From assembly GCA_009840545.1 (NCBI GenBank), contig VXNM01000003.1, positions 186,001 through 250,000 on the forward strand: a stretch of DNA of 64,000 nucleotides, given 5' to 3'. Of this stretch, positions 9,980 to 32,969 are shown in pieces. Below the pieces are notes generated by a model. That model was not told where the DNA came from and made no database searches. It was given only the letters and a program-made list of their open reading frames with translations. Each line of letters begins with the position of its first letter. Position 1 is the first letter of the stretch. The DNA comes from Gammaproteobacteria bacterium. Its GTDB lineage: Bacteria > Pseudomonadota > Gammaproteobacteria > Pseudomonadales > Azotimanducaceae. The position numbers were made by a program, and so were the translations under genes.

Positions 9980-12900
9980 TCATTCGTCAAGCTCAACAAT
10001 TCTGCGAATGCGAGATGTCATACGCTCAAGCGATATCGTGCCATCCGATTTCCCGTCCATTCCATCAAGATAGCCGAGTTCTGCTGACGAAATTACAAAA
10101 GTCACTGTGGGAACTGTTGAATTCCGATAGCTATCCCGAATCGTAAGAAGCAAGTCTGATCTCTTGTCGCCATCAACGTCACCGGCATCGGCGAAATCAG
10201 TAACTACAGATGACGACTCGAAATCGCCACTCTCAAACTTGAAGGAGCGAGGAAGTTCGTGAGCATCAGTCAGATCTAGGATGCGATCCTTTGTGCCATC
10301 CACTTCGTCAAGGCTTTCGAAATCGTCTCGCGAGACTAAGTACGCAACTGTAGACTCAGCGGAACGGCCTATTTTTCCAATGATGATGGAACGACCGCTT
10401 GAGGACGAAGGTCCATCGACGACGGCAACACTACAGGCTACCCAGTTTGTCGGACAGTTAAAGCGCCAAGAATTCTCGGTTTCCGACAGGTCGCGAATCA
10501 CAACGATCCCATTCTCAGTTCCATCGGCTTGATCCAGGGATGCGAAATCAATTTCGGCGAGCACGTCGACAGATCCTGGTTGGACTACGATCAATTCATC
10601 GACCATATCTTGGTCCAAATCCGCTACCCCAAAGCTGGTTCCCAATTCAATTCTTGGTCCGTCTCCAATAAATTTCCAAGAACTCGGCTGCGAGGCAGCA
10701 AATTTCAAGTCGATTTGGCGGTCCGTTCGGCCGTCCGCTTCGTCGATGTTTGTCCAATCGCTACTACCTACCAAATAGATCGCGCCATCGTCCCTGTCGC
10801 TGGAATCGTGACTGGGTGCGCCAATCACAACATCGGAAAGACCATCTTGATCGAAATCTCCAGTAGCCACTGCAGACCCAGCCTGATCCCTCGCGTTTTC
10901 ACCTGTGAAACTCCACACTCGATCCTTCTCATCCAAACCTGAGTAGTTATTCACCGCATTCGCGAGTCGAATTAGTCCGTCTGAACCATCTAAATCGTCA
11001 AGAGACTGCAATGCACTTGAGGATGCGATGAAAACACTTCCTGGGCGTCCTCCCGCTCCAGTTCCCGGCGTCCCAACGCAGATGTCTGGTTTCTCGTCGC
11101 CGTCAACGTCGGAGATAAAGGTTGCCGAGCTTCCGAGACTGTGAGCCCAGCCTCCGACAAGTCTCCAAGTACTCTCGTAGGCTATAAGATCTTGAAGTTT
11201 GACCACGCTATCGGAATTGTCGTCTTCTTCGTCCAATGCCTCAATGTCCGTCGGAGAGATCACATAAGAGTCCGAGTAGATTCCCGCTGAAGTAGACACC
11301 AGAAACGAATCCTTTAACTCGTCGGTAATCGCTCCAACTCGATGCAGCTGAACTATTCCTCCGTCGTCTTCTTCAGGAACCTCGATCTTCCACGAGCCGA
11401 CATGGTCGGTGATGTTTCTGGCATTGATGATGCCGTCGCGCACGCCATCAATTGAGTCAGCTGAAACCAACGAAGCGCTAGAAATGAGGTAGATTTCGTG
11501 CCTTTCGTTAGCGGCTTGACCTGACAGCAGCAAGTCGTGCCAACCATCTCCGTCGGAATCACCCGAACTTCCCGCCTGAGCACCTATTTCAGCTAGGACA
11601 TTCCACGCAACAAACTTCACGGAACGCAGGTCGATTCGAGTTCCATCCAAGGGAAACTCATCGTCTTCGTTTATCGCGCCGTCGCCGTCAACATCGGGGT
11701 CGAAATTGTCTCCTATTCCATCTCCGTCGAGATCGCTCCATTCACTCGAGTCATTTGGAAACGCGTCGTCGTCGTCAGCCACTCCGTCGTTGTCGGAATC
11801 CTGGGATCGGGTTGGATCCAGTGGGAACTGGTCGTCAATATCCAAGACACCATCGCCATCGTCGTCGGTGTCTGAATTGTTGCCCAATCCGTCGCCGTCA
11901 GTATCAGCCCATTCGTCAGGGTTGTTTGGAAAAACATCGCTATTGTCGCCAACACCGTCGGCATCGGAATCTGTGGTTTCTGATGCATCAAGTGGAAAAG
12001 CATCGAGATCGTCTTCAACGCCGTCGTTGTCTGCATCAGTGTCAGCATTGTCACCGAGTCCATCGAGGTCTGAATCCGATGTCTCGTCCGCGTCTAGTGG
12101 AAATGCATCATCGACGTCAAGCACTCCATCGTTATCGTCGTCCATATCCACGGCGTTGTCTACGCCGTCATTGTCGGTGTCCAATGGATACTCATCATCT
12201 GTGTCGCGTATGCCATCGTTGTCGTCGTCATCATCTTCGAGGGAATCACCCAGTCCATCTGCATCCGTATCGATGTATTCCCATGACTTGTTTGGAAAAG
12301 CGTCAATGTTGTCGCCAAACCCGTCGTTGTCCGAGTCCTCCCACTCTGAATCGTCCATGTGAAAGGCATCTTCAAAGTCGTGGAAGTAGTCGTTGTCGTC
12401 ATCAAAATCGGAGAAGTTTTTCACTCCGTCTTTATCGTGATCACCCCACATTTCGTCAATTCGCATCAGGTTGTCTTTGTGCTGATCGCGTTGCTCAAGA
12501 GCGGCGAGGTCACGTGAGGAGACTAGGTATACCGCGCTGTCGGCAATCTCGTCCCTGCCGTCTCCCGGAGCCGTGATTAGCATGTCCTCAAACTCATCGC
12601 CATCGATTGTTGACAAGAACTCCACGTTGCTCCCAAGCCACAAGAGAGGCCTGTGAGGGAGAATGAGTTGGGAATTTGATCTGAATTCCCCACTGGCGGG
12701 GTAATTCGAACCCTGACCTCCTACGGCATTGCTAGCGAGAATTTGTAAATCACCGGAACTCAGCTGAAACACACCGAATATCGGGTAAGCAGTGCCAGAA
12801 GACGAAACAAAGGTGTCACTGTTGCTCGCCACTGGCCCGATGGGATTTACGTTGCGTACGCCAAAAGAATTTCCAGTATTGAAACCGAGATCCAACGAGA

Positions 12901-15724
12901 CATTTCCGTCCAAACTGCCATCGTTTGAATCAAGCGTTTCGAGATCTTGAGAGGCCAAAACAGAGAGAGACGACCATCCTGACAGTCCGTAGTCGGATTT
13001 GCCGTCTCCAGAAAAGTCATTGACAGTTGCAACAAACCCGCCCAAGAAGGAGTGGCTAGATCCCGTGATATGCCACGAATCCTGTTGAGCTGCAACATTT
13101 GCTAGGTCAATGCGTCCATCCTGTTGACCATCGGCATTGTCCGCTTCTACCAAGCGGGATTCCGATAGTACAAACACCGAACCTGCGGATTCATCCCCAA
13201 TTGAAGTTGCACCGATCAGCAAATCCAATTGAGAGTCGTCATTGTTGTTGATGCTCAGGTCGACACTTGCCCGATTTTCACGAGATCCATCCGTAGAAAT
13301 AAACAGCCGTGAGTCGCCTGGTCCCACCGCGCCGAAAATATTGATGATCCGATCAAGCTCACCATCGGCTGCGTCCATGTTTCCGAGCCTGCTTCCAGGA
13401 ATGAAATACGCCACCGAGCGCATTTCTGCGTCGTCATCCAAGTTTTGATGGTGCGTGCCAACAAGAATATCGTCGTAGCCATCGGCGTCGACATCGCCAA
13501 TAACGATTTGGTTGTCTGACGACAGCTCTTGAAGCTCTGCCCCATCGAGTCGCAATCCGAAGTCTCCAATGTCAGACATGCTCAGTGAAATGATTCGATC
13601 GTTGTCGTCGTCAATCTCGTCCAGCTGTGCAAAGGGAATGATGTACAGCGAACCCGAACTAGTTCCACCGTGATTCGCTTTTGGGACAGCAATGACAAGG
13701 TCTAGGCTGTCGTCGCCGTCAAGATCACCTACCCTGACGGAGTCTCCTGCCGCACTTAGATCTGCGGTTCCGACAAGTTTCCATGACATTGATGAATCAA
13801 CGACGCTTGATAGGGTGACAACGCGATCTGTAGCTCCATCTGCGCGATCCAACTCCTCGAGTTCATTTATCGCCAATAAATAGGCTCCTCCAGTGTTGAT
13901 GTCGCCGTTCAACAATTGAGGTACTCCGATCACAAGGTGAGTGTCGGCCAAGTCTTCCTCTGAAGTTCGAAATCCAACCGCATTGGTCGCACTATCGCCC
14001 GCGGACTCTAAGATGAACTTGTAGGAAAAGAATTCGGTCAGGCTCTGGTCAAACGGATATGCATCTTCGATGTCGCGAACTGAATCGCCATCGTCATCCT
14101 TGTCTGCATTGTCTCCGATGCCGTCGCCATCGTTATCTGCCCATTCGGTGGAATCTTCTGGGAATAAGTCGGTTTGATCTCCCCTTCCGTCGCCATCGGT
14201 ATCAGCCCATTCGCTCGAATCCAAAGGAAAGTCATCGGAGTTGTCTCCCACGCCGTCGCCGTCGGAATCTTCCCATTCATTTGGGTCATTGGGAAAGACG
14301 TCCGTGAAGTCGCCGACACCATCATCGTCACTATCAAGAAATTCCAACGAATCCAAGGGAAATGCGTCTTCGACATCCAAATAGCCATCGTCGTCATCGT
14401 CTTCATCAGCATTGTTTCCCACTCCATCGCCATCGGTATCTACCCACTCTGATGAGTCATTCGAAAAGTCATCCACCGGATCGACAAAGCCATCTCCGTC
14501 GCTGTCTTCAAAGGAATCGCGTGCTTGAGCGTATTGAAAACGAACAGCGTTCAGTGTCGCGACTGCATCCGCCGCCGTATCCACGTCATGAGGGTCGCCG
14601 CATGGTGACTCCTCGGTCCCGCATTCCGCGTCGGGGTCTGAGAAAACATGCTGAGCGGACCCTCCCTGGCCGCCGTATGACATCAAGGTGTAGAAATCAC
14701 CAGTGACTGAGTGTCCGCGAGACCATCTCCACGCTCCCGTGGAGTGCTGCCATACGGAATGGTGCAAACCCATCAAGTGTCCCAATTCATGAGCCAATGT
14801 ACGAGCTCCACAAGATCCCACCACTGTTGCTAGTGCATAGGCAAGGCTGACTTGGGACAATTCGCCGCGACGGCCCCAGCCATAGATGCCAGCGAAGCCA
14901 CAGTATCCGCCTTTCTCGGGAAATGGTCCAAACAAGACGGCTAAATCCGATCCGTGGCGTTCACCTTCGTTGAAGAGATCTTCGAAGCTGTCAAGCGAAG
15001 TAGTCTGGTCGTCCATTTCAACTTCCACTGTCCCGACGATGCGCCATTGCATGGGAAGATCGCTGTCGTCCAGGTACTGGTTTGCAAGTTCAAAGACGTG
15101 CTGTATACGGGTGGTCGCGTCCCCGTCAAATTCTTCCGCAAAGCTCTTACCGTACAAGGCGACCACGTCGATTATCGAATCGGGCGGTACCGAGAAAGGA
15201 TTGTCGGGATCGGTACCCTCCAATTCCTCATTTAGGTCGCTAACACCGTCGTCATCGGAGTCAGCTAGAAAGTCAAGAAAGTGAATCGTGAATTCATTGG
15301 AAGGATTCACTTTCTCTTTCATGAAAATCGAGTCGTCCCAGTTTCGGCCTCTGTCTTCGAGCCGCAAAAGCACGTAGTACTCGCCATCGAGAGAAGTCTG
15401 GTATATCGTGGACCGGTCAAACGTTCCTTCGACGAGTACGCCTCCCTTTGGCAAGGTTTGATCAATCTCAATGGTGGCCAGTACCGTGCTGTAGCTATAG
15501 AACCATCGGTCGCTCTGCAACAGCACTTGAACCTTCATGTTCTTGAGATCGATATTGGAATAATTGCGGAAACCGGCGGTCAAGCTAAAAGACTCGTCTC
15601 CGTCGAACTCCAAAGTGCACGGACACTCAAAAAACGCTCTTTCGTCGTTCGCACTGAGAGACAAAGCTGCAATAGCAATCAGCACAATTGCGCCGAGCAC
15701 TTGTGCCTGCTTAGAGAGATCCAT
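9980..15724 (-). CDS. Large secreted metzincin-like metalloprotease with TSP type 3 and FG-GAP repeats
   Basis: The 1,914-residue product starts with a hydrophobic signal peptide (MDLSKQAQVLGAIVLIAIAA). After a short beta-rich domain comes a metalloprotease region with the metzincin zinc motif HELGHLMGLHH at about 312-322 (bases 14759-14791) and a downstream LMSYGG Met-turn. Next come two acidic arrays of thrombospondin type 3 calcium-binding repeats (DTDGDGVGDN-type), each followed by a long run of FG-GAP/integrin-alpha-like repeats (VGDLDGDDSLDLVI-type), probably beta-propellers. A longer frame begins at 15877, but its first 51 residues overlap the upstream gene and precede the signal peptide, so the ATG at 15724 is preferred. 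No sorting tail is recognised at the C-terminus. It overlaps the upstream gene by 14 bases and is probably co-transcribed with it. Substrate unknown. Confidence 0.85.
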   Translation of the reverse strand: MDLSKQAQVLGAIVLIAIAALSLSANDERAFFECPCTLEFDGDESFSLTAGFRNYSNIDLKNMKVQVLLQSDRWFYSYSTVLATIEIDQTLPKGGVLVEGTFDRSTIYQTSLDGEYYVLLRLEDRGRNWDDSIFMKEKVNPSNEFTIHFLDFLADSDDDGVSDLNEELEGTDPDNPFSVPPDSIIDVVALYGKSFAEEFDGDATTRIQHVFELANQYLDDSDLPMQWRIVGTVEVEMDDQTTSLDSFEDLFNEGERHGSDLAVLFGPFPEKGGYCGFAGIYGWGRRGELSQVSLAYALATVVGSCGARTLAHELGHLMGLHHSVWQHSTGAWRWSRGHSVTGDFYTLMSYGGQGGSAQHVFSDPDAECGTEESPCGDPHDVDTAADAVATLNAVRFQYAQARDSFEDSDGDGFVDPVDDFSNDSSEWVDTDGDGVGNNADEDDDDDGYLDVEDAFPLDSLEFLDSDDDGVGDFTDVFPNDPNEWEDSDGDGVGDNSDDFPLDSSEWADTDGDGRGDQTDLFPEDSTEWADNDGDGIGDNADKDDDGDSVRDIEDAYPFDQSLTEFFSYKFILESAGDSATNAVGFRTSEEDLADTHLVIGVPQLLNGDINTGGAYLLAINELEELDRADGATDRVVTLSSVVDSSMSWKLVGTADLSAAGDSVRVGDLDGDDSLDLVIAVPKANHGGTSSGSLYIIPFAQLDEIDDDNDRIISLSMSDIGDFGLRLDGAELQELSSDNQIVIGDVDADGYDDILVGTHHQNLDDDAEMRSVAYFIPGSRLGNMDAADGELDRIINIFGAVGPGDSRLFISTDGSRENRASVDLSINNNDDSQLDLLIGATSIGDESAGSVFVLSESRLVEADNADGQQDGRIDLANVAAQQDSWHITGSSHSFLGGFVATVNDFSGDGKSDYGLSGWSSLSVLASQDLETLDSNDGSLDGNVSLDLGFNTGNSFGVRNVNPIGPVASNSDTFVSSSGTAYPIFGVFQLSSGDLQILASNAVGGQGSNYPASGEFRSNSQLILPHRPLLWLGSNVEFLSTIDGDEFEDMLITAPGDGRDEIADSAVYLVSSRDLAALEQRDQHKDNLMRIDEMWGDHDKDGVKNFSDFDDDNDYFHDFEDAFHMDDSEWEDSDNDGFGDNIDAFPNKSWEYIDTDADGLGDSLEDDDDDNDGIRDTDDEYPLDTDNDGVDNAVDMDDDNDGVLDVDDAFPLDADETSDSDLDGLGDNADTDADNDGVEDDLDAFPLDASETTDSDADGVGDNSDVFPNNPDEWADTDGDGLGNNSDTDDDGDGVLDIDDQFPLDPTRSQDSDNDGVADDDDAFPNDSSEWSDLDGDGIGDNFDPDVDGDGAINEDDEFPLDGTRIDLRSVKFVAWNVLAEIGAQAGSSGDSDGDGWHDLLLSGQAANERHEIYLISSASLVSADSIDGVRDGIINARNITDHVGSWKIEVPEEDDGGIVQLHRVGAITDELKDSFLVSTSAGIYSDSYVISPTDIEALDEEDDNSDSVVKLQDLIAYESTWRLVGGWAHSLGSSATFISDVDGDEKPDICVGTPGTGAGGRPGSVFIASSSALQSLDDLDGSDGLIRLANAVNNYSGLDEKDRVWSFTGENARDQAGSAVATGDFDQDGLSDVVIGAPSHDSSDRDDGAIYLVGSSDWTNIDEADGRTDRQIDLKFAASQPSSWKFIGDGPRIELGTSFGVADLDQDMVDELIVVQPGSVDVLAEIDFASLDQADGTENGIVVIRDLSETENSWRFNCPTNWVACSVAVVDGPSSSSGRSIIIGKIGRSAESTVAYLVSRDDFESLDEVDGTKDRILDLTDAHELPRSFKFESGDFESSSVVTDFADAGDVDGDKRSDLLLTIRDSYRNSTVPTVTFVISSAELGYLDGMDGKSDGTISLERMTSRIRRIVELDE
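11650..12456 (-). repeat. Second thrombospondin type 3 repeat array (coding)
   Basis: This stretch encodes more than ten degenerate repeats of the form DSDGDGVGDNxDAFP, rich in aspartate, with interspersed DDDNDGVLD units. Each repeat is expected to bind calcium. At DNA level it appears as imperfect tandem repeats in the GAT/GAC codon family. It joins the two FG-GAP regions of the metzincin protein. Confidence 0.85.
14035..14523 (-). repeat. First thrombospondin type 3 repeat array (coding)
   Basis: About seven aspartate-rich repeats (DTDGDGVGNN, DSDDDGVGDF and similar, alternating with FPLDSSEW-type linkers) lie between the protease domain and the first FG-GAP region of the metzincin protein. 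They are the same repeat class as the later array. Confidence 0.85.
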
Positions 15725-16355
15725 GCTCAATTTCCGGTATGAAAAAGTCGTCCTTTGTGTAGTCGACATGCTGGTCCATGTTCTCAGTCGGCATAAGCCA
15801 CGCATATTTGTTGTTACCCACCAGCTCAAAGCTTCCTTCCGAGGTTGTGAAGTTAGCGAACACGTTTCGTTCTCCAACCGTAATCAAGAACGAATAGGAG
15901 CTTTCTTCTTCCACGATCTTGCCTTTGTAGGTACGGTTGGTGCCCAAGGTAGTGCTTACTTCTGCAATAGTTACAAGAAACTGCTCTTGAGTTTGCGGTA
16001 CTGCAATCACCAATTGGTCATCTTGTCGCCACAGTTGCATGTCTTGTGCTAGTTGAACCAATGATGCGCCTTCGACTTCTTCCTTGTACTTTGGTACCAA
16101 AGACGGTTGTACGTCTTCAACATTCGTTTCGCTCCAAGCCTCACGCGTTTTCGTGTCGGCAGATGAATTCTGGGCATCGTTGACAGCAATTGCCTCACTG
16201 GTTCCAACGTCAATTTGACTCTCCTGGACAGACTCTGTTTCGGAATGAGATTGATGCCGTTGTTGATTGAAGAGAACGAGCGAAAATAGCGTGACCAGTG
16301 CCAAGACAACGACTGAAACCGCAAGAATCAGAGTACGAGAACGAATCAGTTTCAT
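15711..16355 (-). CDS. Membrane-anchored protein resembling a metalloprotease propeptide
   Basis: The 214-residue product has a basic start, one membrane segment at about 8-28 (LILAVSVVVLALVTLFSLVLF), a Ser/Glu/Gln-rich linker to about residue 85, and a compact C-terminal domain. The region at about 130-190 (RTYKGKIVEEESSYSFLI, then VFANFTTSEGSFELVG) has the pattern of N-terminal propeptides of secreted metzincins (short strands 'tYxGxv.....S.v.l.v...g.f..i.t..G.y.l'). In typical proteases this domain is fused to the catalytic domain; here it is a separate gene that overlaps the metzincin gene directly downstream by 14 bases. I infer an inhibitor, chaperone or anchor for that protease. Similarity was judged by eye, so the domain call is moderate. 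Confidence 0.55.
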   Translation of the reverse strand: MKLIRSRTLILAVSVVVLALVTLFSLVLFNQQRHQSHSETESVQESQIDVGTSEAIAVNDAQNSSADTKTREAWSETNVEDVQPSLVPKYKEEVEGASLVQLAQDMQLWRQDDQLVIAVPQTQEQFLVTIAEVSTTLGTNRTYKGKIVEEESSYSFLITVGERNVFANFTTSEGSFELVGNNKYAWLMPTENMDQHVDYTKDDFFIPEIEHGSL

Positions 16356-16631
16356 GGCTTCATGACGGAGGAGCGCCTTTTATGACAGATCCAGTTTCTA
16401 TCTGTTTATTTGATACAAAATCGAGTGTCTTCGAGAGAATCTCGTGCACTTTTCGAATTTACAAGGCATGTTTCTAGACACCACGAGAAAGCCTGCGTTC
16501 CCGCAACTGTTGTCAGACGTGAGCGATCCACAAAAATACGTTCCTATAAGAGAACGTTATATCGGTCATGTGTTGAACAGATCGAGGAACTAATTGACAA
16601 TCCGCTGGAGTTCACATATGGATACGAGCAG

Positions 16632-17006
16632 GTGAGTGGCAGATCAGAAAACAAAACCCTCGCAAATCAGGTTCGCATTGGAGGTGTTTTAGTTCTTGGG
16701 CAAAGCATAGATGCTCAGACTCGATGCGACCACTACCACGGCCCCACTGACATTGTTGCCATTCGGTTCAAATGCTGCGGCAACTGGTTTTCTTGCTACT
16801 TTTGCCATCGAGAATTGACCGACCACGAATCCACGGTATGGGAGCTCTCCGAGACGAAGACGGAAGCAATTATTTGTGGAAGCTGCGGTGCACGCCTAAC
16901 GATTAGTTCGTATTTGAATGCAGAGGACCAATGTCCGCACTGCAAGGCAGATTTCAATCCTGGTTGCCATCTGCATCATCACTTGTACTTCGCTATAAAA
17001 CCATGA
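16632..17006 (+). CDS. CHY-type zinc finger protein
   Basis: The C-terminal ~100 residues match the CHY zinc-finger family: TRCDHYHGPTDIVAIRFKCC, then CYFCHREL, ICGSCGARL, CPHCKADFNPGC and a final HLYF. All the paired Cys/His ligands are present, so several zinc ions should bind. The function of bacterial CHY proteins is not established. The reading frame is open back to a TTG at 16410, but the first 70 or so residues do not resemble the family. A GTG at 16632 gives 124 residues, close to the family norm, and is chosen with low certainty. It is divergent from the propeptide-like gene and runs towards rnpB, which is on the other strand. Confidence 0.72.
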   Translation: MSGRSENKTLANQVRIGGVLVLGQSIDAQTRCDHYHGPTDIVAIRFKCCGNWFSCYFCHRELTDHESTVWELSETKTEAIICGSCGARLTISSYLNAEDQCPHCKADFNPGCHLHHHLYFAIKP

Positions 17007-29471: not shown

Positions 29472-32400
29472 TCACTCTTCAACAAGCGTCCACCTAATTG
29501 CATCACCAACACTTGCACCGTTAGATTTCGGCGTCGAAATTACTTCGGTTGTTCCGGCTTCGAGGTCAAAATTCCCTATATCGTTCCAACCGTGCGGGGC
29601 ATTGAACGCGTCCAGATCAGTGATTGACTCCTTGCCAACGCCTTTTACAGCGATTTCATACACACCTAACGTAGTTGGTCGCGACCAAGAGATTATCGTG
29701 CCGGGACCGGGGCTATAGGAGGATTGATATTGCTTTCGGTTCACGGCTGGAACATGGAATTCTAATTTCCACGTCCCGGAGATAGGTATGTCTGCGGTGA
29801 ACTTTGCGCTGATTGAATCCGACCGCAACATGTTTATCGCATGAGTATGTCTATATTTGCCAAAACTCAAAGGTGCTGTCTCGCGATACCACCGGCCAGA
29901 CTCTAACGGGTTGTCCGACAGAGTTTTGAGTGCGTGGGTTAGCTCGGGCATTCCTCGATCCATCTCAATTGGAGTGGAATCCCTTGCGAATAAGAATGTG
30001 ATCCATCTGGGAAGCATTGGATCTGTCAAGCTCTCAGCACTTTCATCCGTCACGCCAATCCAAGAGAAACCTTCGTCGAGATCATCAACAGTAACTACGT
30101 TGTTATCAATTGGGTCCCAGTCCGAATCCGTCACAAGAGGCAAGATTGGCGAATCGGAGCGTTCGATGCTGTCACGACTCGGAGAGTCGAGATGAAACGG
30201 GTCTCGATTTAGAGATAGATAGGGATCCAAGACTACCCGTGTTGGTGGAGCACTGGATTGAAATGCAATGCGAAGCGAAGTATGCCCATCAATCCTAACA
30301 GTTTCCAAATACTGTTCTTCAAGGCCAGCCAAGTCGTCTACATACGAAACTCCAACCACTCCCGGTACGGATTCGTCATTGCGAATTACAAAACTTGACT
30401 GATACACTGGCTCTCCAGCAGTGGTGTCCGCCAAACGTTCAACAAAAGGATCTGAAGCGATGAACCCTGGCAGTTCCAAGTCGTGGAGCCAGTCTCCAAG
30501 TATAGACTCCAAGTCCAAATCCACTTCCATCGCGGTTGATAGAAAGGCTTCTTCGCCGTAGTTTTTGCCTTTGTAACGGCTGACCAATTCACGCAAGAGC
30601 GCGCCAACCTTTTCTTCACCACCAAATTCCAGGATTAGTTTCGAAACTTCGCCAATCTTGAGTAGTAAAACGTGATATGCATCGACGGGATTACTTTCAA
30701 AGTCCAACCCAACGAGAGGTGATTCAATCATGAGTTCCCACACTGAAGGTTTGCGACTGAATTGACCACGCCAATCTAGGTTTTGGTATGTCGGAGTTGA
30801 GCCGAATCCACCGCCCGAGTTGAAGGTTGTAGTTGAGATTTGATTGAAGGTGTTGCCCGAAAATAGAGCTGGAATAGAAAAGTATCCTTCTGCTTCTGTG
30901 AGTAATTTCTGGGTGAGTTCGTCGATAAGAAAGTCTACGGCGACTGCACCTGGACCCTTTGGTGACGTCTGATGACCAATAAACGTTTTGCCCATGTGCA
31001 GAAAAGGATTCCCTCCGTCGTAGCCGTTCTGAAAATATGCATTAAGAAGCCCAAGTACGTACTCTGCAAACAAATCCGATTCGTCTTCGAAGTTTTGGCG
31101 CTGTCCGTCAATTGGATAGTCAAATCGAGCAATAGGAAAGCCTGATTCTCTGATCATTTGGATGCCAGGAGGAGAAAATACACTCCCCATTTGCCAACCT
31201 CCTCCGTAAACCCTCATGGAGACTGGGACTTCCACGAAGGATAGTGTCCCGTATGGATATTCCAATCCCAATTCTCTAGATTTGCTGAGCAATTCGCTGA
31301 GCCATTCTTTCAGTGCTGGGACAACCAACTCCAATGTTTTCAAGTTCTTAGTGTGTTTTTTGCTAAGTAGCAACTCAAACTCGACACCCTCCTGTTTCAG
31401 CGCACGCCGTTCGAACTTCGATCCAACTAAGGCGAATTCAGGTATTGGATTCCTTGGGTTGAATCGAAAAGTGGTTCGCTTGCCTTCATCTAACAGGTCT
31501 CGAGTGCCTGGTCCCGCCACGATCCACTCACGTGGAACACTGACTTCGATGTCAAGATTGAAGAAGTCTTGAGGTCGTTTCCGTAGGTCTGACCTACCGT
31601 ATGCCGATCCGGAAGCAGGAAACCAACTAACTCCTGGCATCAGTGCTACAAATTGTGGATGAAATATGTACGACTGTGTCCCGAAACGAAATGCTTCTCG
31701 AGCTTGCAAATAGTCCATTTCGGACCATTTGAGAGAGCTATCCAAATATGCGAAATTTGGATCGGGGACTCCGTTGGCGATCAACCGTAACTGCGTTGAA
31801 AAAGCACTTTCATTTGTTACGGGTAATTTGAGTAAGCCTCTCTCAAATTCAAACTCTTTCACCGAGCTACCATTCAACTCTAAACTCTTAATCTGGTAGC
31901 CCGGGTTTAGCGTTATCAACCTCACATCTCCTGTTCGTAGGGTTGAAGAGGAAAATTTCAGAATCAGATCTAGCTTTATATTTCGTCCCGGGTGGATCTC
32001 TACTGTACCGCTGATCGAATCGATGTCTGTCAAAGAATTCGATTGATATTCGGCGTGGTATTGGGCCCAATCCCCAGTCTGGCGCAACTCTCCCATTTTG
32101 AATTGAGCCAGTCCGTAGACACCTAATAGCGAAATCCCTACGGCAAGAGCTCCTCCAAGTAACTCATACGTCTTCGTCCTTTGAGGATTCTGACGCGACA
32201 GGATTGCGGACGTAAGCAAGAGCAAGCCTACTGAGAAGATTGCAATGCAAGTTCGATTGAGGACGATGTCCAGGTTGAACAAATGGGGCGCTAATGCCGA
32301 TGGGAAGGCATCGCTACCACTGAACGTCGACAGCACTGATGCAAGGAAAAATGGAATTCTGTTGCTTAAAGTGAAGTAACCAAACAGCAAACCACCGAGA

Positions 32401-32969
32401 ATCACGACGACAATCAACCGAAATCGCACTAATACGGATACGAACACCGTCATCGAGCCCCACAAAAGGAGATTGGGAATGATGTCCCAAACTAGAAAAG
32501 CAATGACACTAGCGGGTTCGCTGCCCGCACCAAACCTAAAGCCGATTACTTCTGCAAGGAATCCCAGAGCTGACACAGTCAAGATTAGAGCGGCTGCAGG
32601 AATGGCAAGAAGAAGCACAACTCCCAGCAGTCTGCCGGACAACAGCTCGAAGTTCGACATTGGGCGTGTGTCTACTGCTTCTTGAATGCGATCTCTGATA
32701 TCTCTCGATCTGACATCAAATGCAAGAAAAACGATGCCTATCGAGAACAGAAACACGATCACGCTACCCATATTAGAAATTACGTAGTGGGGTCCCAATA
32801 GGCCTGCGGAGGGGGAAACATAAGAGGTAAAGCCATGTGCGAGGCAGAGCCACAGCCACATGACACCACTAGTGACTAAGGCTATGGCTACAAAGACCCA
32901 CGTACGTATCAGTCTTCGGCAGGATCGCATCTCCGCAGAGACAATTGCCCAAAAATTGGAAACGTTCAT
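29472..32969 (-). CDS. ABC-2 type permease fused to an M1 aminopeptidase-like domain lacking HExxH
   Basis: The 1,165-residue product starts with an ABC-2-like permease of several membrane spans (about residues 10-290, including FDVRSRDIRDRIQEAVDTRP, typical of this permease group). The remaining ~870 residues are extracytoplasmic with an M1-peptidase-like build (beta-sandwich N-domain, then a GYDGGNPFLHMGKTFIGHQT segment where the family normally has zinc-binding HExxH). No HExxH is present; GHQTSPKG occurs in its place, so the peptidase is probably inactive. Such fusions normally sit beside an ABC ATPase gene; none is found on either side. The ATG has a clear AAGGAG ribosome site. Confidence 0.7.
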   Translation of the reverse strand: MNVSNFWAIVSAEMRSCRRLIRTWVFVAIALVTSGVMWLWLCLAHGFTSYVSPSAGLLGPHYVISNMGSVIVFLFSIGIVFLAFDVRSRDIRDRIQEAVDTRPMSNFELLSGRLLGVVLLLAIPAAALILTVSALGFLAEVIGFRFGAGSEPASVIAFLVWDIIPNLLLWGSMTVFVSVLVRFRLIVVVILGGLLFGYFTLSNRIPFFLASVLSTFSGSDAFPSALAPHLFNLDIVLNRTCIAIFSVGLLLLTSAILSRQNPQRTKTYELLGGALAVGISLLGVYGLAQFKMGELRQTGDWAQYHAEYQSNSLTDIDSISGTVEIHPGRNIKLDLILKFSSSTLRTGDVRLITLNPGYQIKSLELNGSSVKEFEFERGLLKLPVTNESAFSTQLRLIANGVPDPNFAYLDSSLKWSEMDYLQAREAFRFGTQSYIFHPQFVALMPGVSWFPASGSAYGRSDLRKRPQDFFNLDIEVSVPREWIVAGPGTRDLLDEGKRTTFRFNPRNPIPEFALVGSKFERRALKQEGVEFELLLSKKHTKNLKTLELVVPALKEWLSELLSKSRELGLEYPYGTLSFVEVPVSMRVYGGGWQMGSVFSPPGIQMIRESGFPIARFDYPIDGQRQNFEDESDLFAEYVLGLLNAYFQNGYDGGNPFLHMGKTFIGHQTSPKGPGAVAVDFLIDELTQKLLTEAEGYFSIPALFSGNTFNQISTTTFNSGGGFGSTPTYQNLDWRGQFSRKPSVWELMIESPLVGLDFESNPVDAYHVLLLKIGEVSKLILEFGGEEKVGALLRELVSRYKGKNYGEEAFLSTAMEVDLDLESILGDWLHDLELPGFIASDPFVERLADTTAGEPVYQSSFVIRNDESVPGVVGVSYVDDLAGLEEQYLETVRIDGHTSLRIAFQSSAPPTRVVLDPYLSLNRDPFHLDSPSRDSIERSDSPILPLVTDSDWDPIDNNVVTVDDLDEGFSWIGVTDESAESLTDPMLPRWITFLFARDSTPIEMDRGMPELTHALKTLSDNPLESGRWYRETAPLSFGKYRHTHAINMLRSDSISAKFTADIPISGTWKLEFHVPAVNRKQYQSSYSPGPGTIISWSRPTTLGVYEIAVKGVGKESITDLDAFNAPHGWNDIGNFDLEAGTTEVISTPKSNGASVGDAIRWTLVEE

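Follow-up and report, generated by a model that had tools for sequence, protein, structure and literature searches.

Membrane-anchored partners of metzincin proteases that leave the cell by type II secretion are already known. Both CpaA (PMC4713064) and Mep72 (PMC4334185) are published as type II substrates. CpaB, which accompanies CpaA, is membrane-anchored, is required for CpaA secretion and is described as a type II secretion system (T2SS) chaperone, for which a link to SRPBCC domains and possibly an ancestry in eukaryotes have been put forward (PMC4713064). Its tail enters the catalytic site of CpaA, and CpaB has been reported to be secreted along with the protease when its anchor is removed (PMC7542363). 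BamI binds Mep72 and relieves its toxicity in Escherichia coli (PMC4334185), and the gene beside Mep72 was already listed as a putative chaperone for its position and membrane helix (printed as PA2872; PMC4713064). The present analysis deals with a pair that is a divergent member of this group, found in a stretch of 64,000 nucleotides (hereafter, the window) from a Gammaproteobacteria bacterium of the Azotimanducaceae (assembly GCA_009840545.1, contig VXNM01000003.1, positions 186,001 to 250,000), in which the gene of a small membrane protein (P0001) overlaps that of a large secreted-type metzincin (P0002).

As judged from sequence comparison, the periplasmic domain predicted for P0001 is related to domains placed N-terminally in single-chain metzincins, that is, the same domain occurs within the protease chain (in cis) or on a separate protein (in trans). 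With a probability of roughly three in four, the two genes would encode a split zymogen, in which the tethered P0001 domain binds P0002, helps it to fold and keeps it latent, with its tail probably in the cleft. Neither a sequence link between CpaB, BamI and the cis prodomain, nor a survey of cis and trans arrangements, nor a joint treatment of BamI and CpaB was found in the literature searched, the papers on the CpaA-CpaB structure, which may draw a parallel of fold, lying outside its coverage.

Gene layout and relation of the P0001 domain

The P0001 gene, an open reading frame of the window, lies upstream of the protease gene on the same strand and directly adjoins it, the latter starting with an ATG at 15724. 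A near-identical pair in genome G003 (L043) shows the same offset of −14. The sequence-only reading of the window had described a 214-residue protein with one membrane anchor, whose gene shares 14 bases with that of a metzincin, and both descriptions were confirmed. The AlphaFold2 model of P0001 was built from 21 sequences, with a mean predicted local distance difference test score (pLDDT) of 84.5 and a predicted template modelling score of 0.62. The features of the pair and of P0001 are the following:

15711..16355, minus strand: P0001, membrane-anchored propeptide-like protein (BamI/CpaB-related), 214 amino acids
9980..15724, minus strand: P0002, secreted-type metzincin with D-rich/TSP3-like and FG-GAP repeats, 1914 amino acids
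15711..15724, minus strand: overlap of the two genes, 14 bases, same offset in L043
16254..16337, minus strand: single membrane helix of P0001, residues 7-34, from the AlphaFold2 model and hydropathy
16149..16253, minus strand: flexible linker, residues 35-69, pLDDT 54-66 per ten-residue block, no secondary structure
15786..16148, minus strand: beta domain (propeptide-like), residues 70-190, pLDDT 86-97 per ten-residue block, CpaB (6o38) by Foldseek, related to cis N-terminal domains
15714..15785, minus strand: C-terminal tail, residues 191-214, candidate active-site blocking segment, pLDDT dropping to 74, 66 and 59

P0001 has a single strongly hydrophobic segment, the best 19-residue mean being 2.98 at residues 9-27 and only 1.02 after residue 40. 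Together with the model, this suggests a single N-terminal membrane anchor followed by a periplasmic C-terminal domain, as in CpaB. An N-terminal hydrophobic segment was likewise present in 56 of 61 family sequences (41 from the set of relatives and 20 named loci), being weaker or missing in L074, L112, L116, L119 and L135, while no lipobox-like motif was seen in any of the 61. In Pfam, no family matched P0001 at its cut-off, and only one of the 41 C-terminal domain sequences had any match at E ≤ 0.01.

These 41 domains were aligned (A1) and used as a profile against 369 genomes of the class, which yielded 6 matches besides the own genome at E ≤ 0.001, all of them N-terminal to a metzincin catalytic domain. 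In L087, L088, L089, L090 and L092, the domain and the zinc motif HExxHxxGxxH stood in one open frame; in L091, the catalytic start lay in a second frame that overlaps the first, and the contig stopped short of the motif, a broken and a split gene being indistinguishable there. Moreover, an hhalign comparison of the trans alignment (A4, 21 rows: P0001 and 20 trans relatives) with the cis alignment (A3, 4 rows), which were the only two alignments compared, gave a probability of 97.3 and an E-value of 2.1e−11. The propeptide likeness that had been judged by eye was thus borne out, the profile search reaching domains in propeptide position and not an unrelated family. Furthermore, 17 cis N-terminal regions scored 19.0-69.7 bits, compared with a maximum of 9.4 bits for 3400 shuffles of them, and the domain was absent from 28 of 28 trans-type proteases (best E-value 50; P0002 scanned whole and the other 27 over their first 600 residues, L060 being short at its N-terminus).

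A total of 53 named metzincin loci among the matches listed were gathered by means of a catalytic-domain alignment. Among these, the domain was on a separate gene in 19 and in the metzincin's own frame in 12. The partner lay downstream, in the CpaA-CpaB order, in three of the 19 (L126, L135 and L137), and at L099 some 2.5 kb separated the domain gene from the frame that carries the zinc motif. As a separate observation, a single-chain metzincin of Methyloversatilis (L123:3888-5972) carried two tandem matches to the prodomain profile, with E-values of 7e−4 and 2e−10.

The fold of the P0001 model also matched CpaB. In a Foldseek search of the PDB, ranks 1-6 were the CpaB-length chains of 6O38 (E 2.1e−4 to 1.3e−3, probability 1.00, template modelling score by target 0.67-0.73, identity 11-13%), followed by weak matches (E ≥ 0.18) to ADAM17 and profragilysin prodomains, a mucin, a pseudokinase and fatty-acid-binding proteins. 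CpaB (6o38_G) was also first when a sequence profile was searched against the PDB, with an E-value of 0.0013. Within A4, 13 of the 21 rows matched the NCBIfam model of BamI and 11 that of CpaB at E ≤ 0.01, so that both published families are represented in one and the same alignment. For the single-chain metzincin of Shewanella ulleungensis (L110), a model of low overall confidence showed eight strands in its N-terminal domain in the same order as in P0001, and its best PDB matches were the 6O38 chains of 514-573 residues (CpaA by length; E 6.5e−12); in this respect, the protein resembles a fusion of CpaB with CpaA.

In the tail of P0001, the aspartate D203 (codon 15747-15749) stands 11 residues from the C-terminus and was found as D in 36 of 41 rows, including 29 of the 30 with a metzincin neighbour and 7 of 10 orphans, but not in the single remaining row (L074). 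It was conserved at 90% or more in the 21 rows of A4, and hhalign aligned it with an aspartate shared by all the cis rows of A3 (4/4); by eye, an aspartate was seen in the tail stretch of about 13 of 17 cis rows. By analogy with CpaB, the tail probably lies in the active-site cleft, D203 being a candidate zinc blocker.

The protease and its surroundings

P0002 has both marks of a reprolysin-type metzincin, namely the HExxHxxGxxH motif and a Met motif downstream of it. Its features are the following:

15650..15724, minus strand: signal-peptide-like N-terminus, residues 1-25, from a hydropathy of 2.23 and the sequence
15275..15649, minus strand: N-terminal ECPC... region, residues 26-150, not the propeptide domain, with no match to the A1 profile
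14480..15175, minus strand: catalytic domain, residues 184-415, Mep72 profile (NF052434) and Reprolysin families
14759..14791, minus strand: zinc-binding motif HELGHLMGLHH, residues 312-322, from the sequence
14675..14689, minus strand: TLMSY, residues 346-350, from the sequence, which we take to be the Met-turn
14045..14506, minus strand: first D-rich (TSP3-like) block, residues 407-560, with D.D.DG repeats
11645..12442, minus strand: second D-rich (TSP3-like) block, residues 1095-1360, matching COMP and thrombospondin chains in a PDB sequence search
10772..10882, minus strand: best FG-GAP repeat, residues 1615-1651, PF01839 over its cut-off (E 1.8e−11)

In Pfam, Reprolysin_5, Reprolysin_3, Reprolysin_4 and FG-GAP were over their cut-offs, and TSP_3 was below. 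The NCBIfam model of Mep72 matched with an E-value of 1.4e−35 and 123 bits, below its curated cut-off of 645, compared with 16.5 bits for CpaA. The N-terminus showed a hydrophobic segment, and an unfiltered search of P0002 with the family profile detected no propeptide-like domain even at E ≤ 100, in agreement with the earlier description of a signal-peptide-bearing metzincin that lacks an obvious propeptide of its own. The own genome has a GspD secretin over its cut-off (E 1.5e−125), and by analogy with CpaA and Mep72, P0002 may be exported by type II secretion. As an observation by eye, the ECPC... region resembles the start of another, unpaired protease of the same genome (L098).

On the other side of P0001, a divergent gene at 16410-17006 encodes a CHY zinc-finger protein (PF05495 over its cut-off), and the genes flanking the pair and this gene presumably correspond to rsmI and the rsmH-ftsI division cluster. 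Elsewhere in the window, 29472-32969 encodes a 1165-residue protein of a strongly expanded family, with 14 matches in the own genome and 29 in G002 at E ≤ 1e−50; no Pfam family over its cut-off and no NCBIfam model at E ≤ 0.01 matched it. It was tried as a housekeeping marker and dropped for being a many-copy family, FtsI being used instead.

Pairs, orphans and cis/trans switching in relatives

A total of 58 genomes (the own genome and its relatives) were searched with P0001, of which 31 had a match at E ≤ 1 and 27 had none. The matches comprised 47 rows, one of them being the window, 41 being taken as loci (L043-L083) and five weak rows being left out (G050, G011:C28, G000:C5:1005869, G045 and G039; E 0.008-0.35). 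A fusion candidate, L078 (G011:C34, a 2010-residue frame, E 0.211), was rejected as a chance match with no HExxHxxGxxH motif. Thus, 40 loci were counted beside the window, 38 in relatives and two in the own genome. A frame with HExxHxxGxxH lay downstream on the same strand in 26 of the 40 (in L080, the frame ends soon past the motif), and it was otherwise placed in three more, that is, upstream in L060, downstream without a start in L065 and divergent in L077. With cis fusions also found, the survey of adjacency and fusion that the sequence-only reading had proposed came out in favour of a conserved pair. Broken or cut metzincin frames were noted at L065, L080 and L091.

The own genome harbours three metzincins with Reprolysin_4 and three P0001-like genes, which form two pairs and leave one unpaired protease (L098) and one orphan (L082). 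The loci without a partner are the following:

L098:6663-10625, L212-L218 (G009, G010, G015, G016, G017): unpaired large metzincins, L213 and L216 being at contig ends
L082:4278-5090, L045, L046, L049, L050, L051, L053, L054, L055, L057: orphan P0001-like loci, no metzincin being present in the stretch covered

In all 10 orphan loci, the gene of the BamI/CpaB-like membrane protein is directly followed by a glycosyltransferase-like gene. In L049, the only locus profiled in this respect, the genes after the orphan matched TIGR04283 and TIGR04282 over their cut-offs. The orphan of the own genome (L082) matched the CpaB model with an E-value of 1.7e−6 and 28.2 bits, the cut-off being 90. In an FtsI tree, one clade of the genus had the orphan in all 10 genomes sampled and the other clade in none of its five; this tree leaves out G001, G004 and G012, which had no FtsI match at E ≤ 1e−60 and have no orphan. 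Among 18 genomes of the genus, 10 had the orphan and eight had an unpaired protease of 1256-1321 residues, all eight with the orphan as well, a truncated frame in G006 being left unclassed in this count. The orphan was considered as the unlinked cognate of this protease, for which LipB, tabulated with LipC at a distance of 2.19 Mb (PMC4713064), offers an analogue. However, the orphan marks the clade, and G002 and G011 have the orphan and no metzincin match at E ≤ 1e−5, so the association was kept as a lead and not as evidence; that the orphan of the own genome serves its unpaired protease would be a guess.

Co-divergence of the pairs was also considered. The distances of 26 pairs were correlated (r 0.92, with none of 2000 permutations as high) and the nearest neighbours of the protease and the P0001-like protein were equal in 16 of the 26, but this was given little weight because the relatedness of the species was uncontrolled.

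A tree was built with a quick method from 71 catalytic domains (41 trans, 18 cis and 12 with no domain, some of which may hide undetected domains), its support values coming only from the Shimodaira-Hasegawa-like approximate likelihood ratio test. Its backbone was weak, with 23 of 68 inner branches well supported and 23 open. On well-supported branches, the label changed to or from cis at least four times and for trans at least three times, which indicates more than one switch between both arrangements, although the tree gives no direction. A wider proposal, held tentatively and at slightly worse than even odds, is that a single domain underlies CpaB, BamI and the prodomain with which a large group of bacterial metzincins begins. 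This domain would have moved repeatedly between cis, as a prodomain, and trans, as a membrane-tethered chaperone-inhibitor, and some lineages would keep free-standing orphans whose targets in trans are proteases encoded elsewhere or partners of a new kind.

Proposed split zymogen, alternative readings and known systems

In the proposed mechanism, P0002 would lack a prodomain when its signal peptide takes it across the inner membrane. P0001, anchored in that membrane by its single helix, would use its flexible linker to expose on the periplasmic side the beta domain that forms the N-terminal prodomain of some related metzincins. This domain would bind the catalytic domain of P0002 and aid its secretion-competent fold, and P0001 would escort the protease in the periplasm and maintain its latency until type II secretion, with the C-terminal tail probably in the active-site cleft, where D203 may block the zinc. 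Activation would follow from the loss of the partner.

Several results weigh against this proposal. P0001 matched the NCBIfam model of BamI (NF052435) with an E-value of 2.3e−6 and 27.6 bits, far from the curated cut-off of 180, and that of CpaB (NF033512) gave no row at E ≤ 5. Over the 58 relatives, the BamI profile matched 35 at E ≤ 1, none of them over the cut-off, and it also matched 2 of 14 control genomes at the same threshold, so that weak matches to it carry little weight by themselves. In the 369 genomes of the class, the CpaB model matched solely the orphan of the own genome, below the cut-off. Moreover, 22 of the 53 named metzincin loci among the matches listed had no domain match at E ≤ 1e−3 (three of them with weak matches, E 0.0013-0.056), 11 of the 40 P0001-like loci had no metzincin neighbour (the 10 orphans and L074, as far as the stretch covered extends), and the genus also has large metzincins with neither a cis domain nor a P0001-like gene in the stretch seen. 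Finally, the L110 model had a mean pLDDT of 63.5, with residues 155-178 below 50, a confidence too low to say anything on the position of the tail in the cleft.

Other readings of the pair were considered. P0001 might be a plain periplasmic inhibitor of the immunity type, like AprI, directed at protease that misfires there and without a role in folding or export, as would fit BamI, which was described as inhibiting Mep72 and relieving its toxicity (PMC4334185). However, cis N-terminal domains are relatives of its domain, whose predicted fold is that of CpaB, a protein required for secretion (PMC4713064), and inhibition and chaperoning are not exclusive; a purely inhibitory role is regarded as unlikely. 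The opposite case, a secretion chaperone or foldase that leaves the active site unblocked, with a merely structural tail motif, is considered less probable still. CpaB is a T2SS chaperone (PMC4713064) and the tail of P0001 is of low confidence in the model, but the CpaB tail enters the catalytic site of CpaA (PMC7542363), and D203 is nearly invariant and aligned by hhalign with the invariant cis aspartate. That the two genes are chance neighbours, P0001 being an unrelated membrane protein with a fold similar to SRPBCC or fatty-acid-binding proteins and the overlap being meaningless, is highly improbable and was already disfavoured: folds of the latter type appear lower in the Foldseek list and P0001-like genes also occur away from proteases, but a metzincin neighbour was found in 29 of the 40 other loci, the cis fusion exists, and CpaB came first both by sequence and by fold.

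If the split zymogen holds, CpaB and BamI would share an origin and a mechanism, that of a prodomain released from the protease chain and anchored at the inner membrane, and activation would occur by separation during type II secretion instead of by cleavage. D203 would be a testable residue, and the annotation of unknown membrane proteins beside metzincins would be aided. Moreover, related bacteria with cis and trans versions would make the costs and benefits of splitting a zymogen testable. The arrangement had been suggested as an uncommon one, and uncommon it is, but not of a new kind, since CpaA-CpaB and Mep72-BamI have been published.

Compared with more distant systems, the prodomains of profragilysin (Bacteroides fragilis) and ADAM17 were weak Foldseek matches (E 0.18-1) among unrelated folds. 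Like the lipase-specific foldases (LipB/Lif), which PMC4713064 groups with CpaB, P0001 is membrane-anchored, is encoded next to its putative partner, as the foldases mostly are, and would act on an enzyme exported by the T2SS; unlike P0001, these foldases have a lipase as substrate, and none was in the best 50 of 602 Foldseek rows (E ≤ 10). AprI-AprA also places an inhibitor beside a secreted metzincin, a comparison drawn for BamI in PMC4334185, but AprA is exported by type I secretion (PMC4334185). The single-chain metzincins (L110, L123 and L087-L089) carry the same domain by profile, but there it is part of the protease chain after the signal peptide and has no membrane anchor of its own.

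The closest systems are those named at the outset. As in CpaA-CpaB of Acinetobacter (6O38), a protein with a single N-terminal helix and a periplasmic domain is encoded beside a secreted metzincin. In contrast, cpaB lies downstream of cpaA (PMC4713064), while the P0001 gene is upstream of that of P0002, and, unlike CpaA, P0002 has 1914 residues with FG-GAP and TSP3-like repeats. In Mep72-BamI of Pseudomonas aeruginosa (PA2783-PA2782), the inhibitor gene is likewise beside the protease gene, with which it is co-transcribed there (PMC4334185). Mep72 has C-terminal carbohydrate-binding modules (PMC4334185), none of which was found in P0002 by Pfam, but the catalytic domain of P0002 is of the Mep72 type. 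Beside the pair of Pseudomonas otitidis (L130), a second BamI-type gene was observed on the opposite strand (L130:2762-3598, minus strand; 224.8 bits, over the cut-off). The L130 pair itself, taken as a positive control, passed the BamI and Mep72 cut-offs with 252.4 and 721.8 bits, respectively, and the window pair was below them, which makes the latter related to BamI-Mep72 and not an equivalog; in L130, the BamI gene is upstream of the protease gene, as the P0001 gene is in the window.

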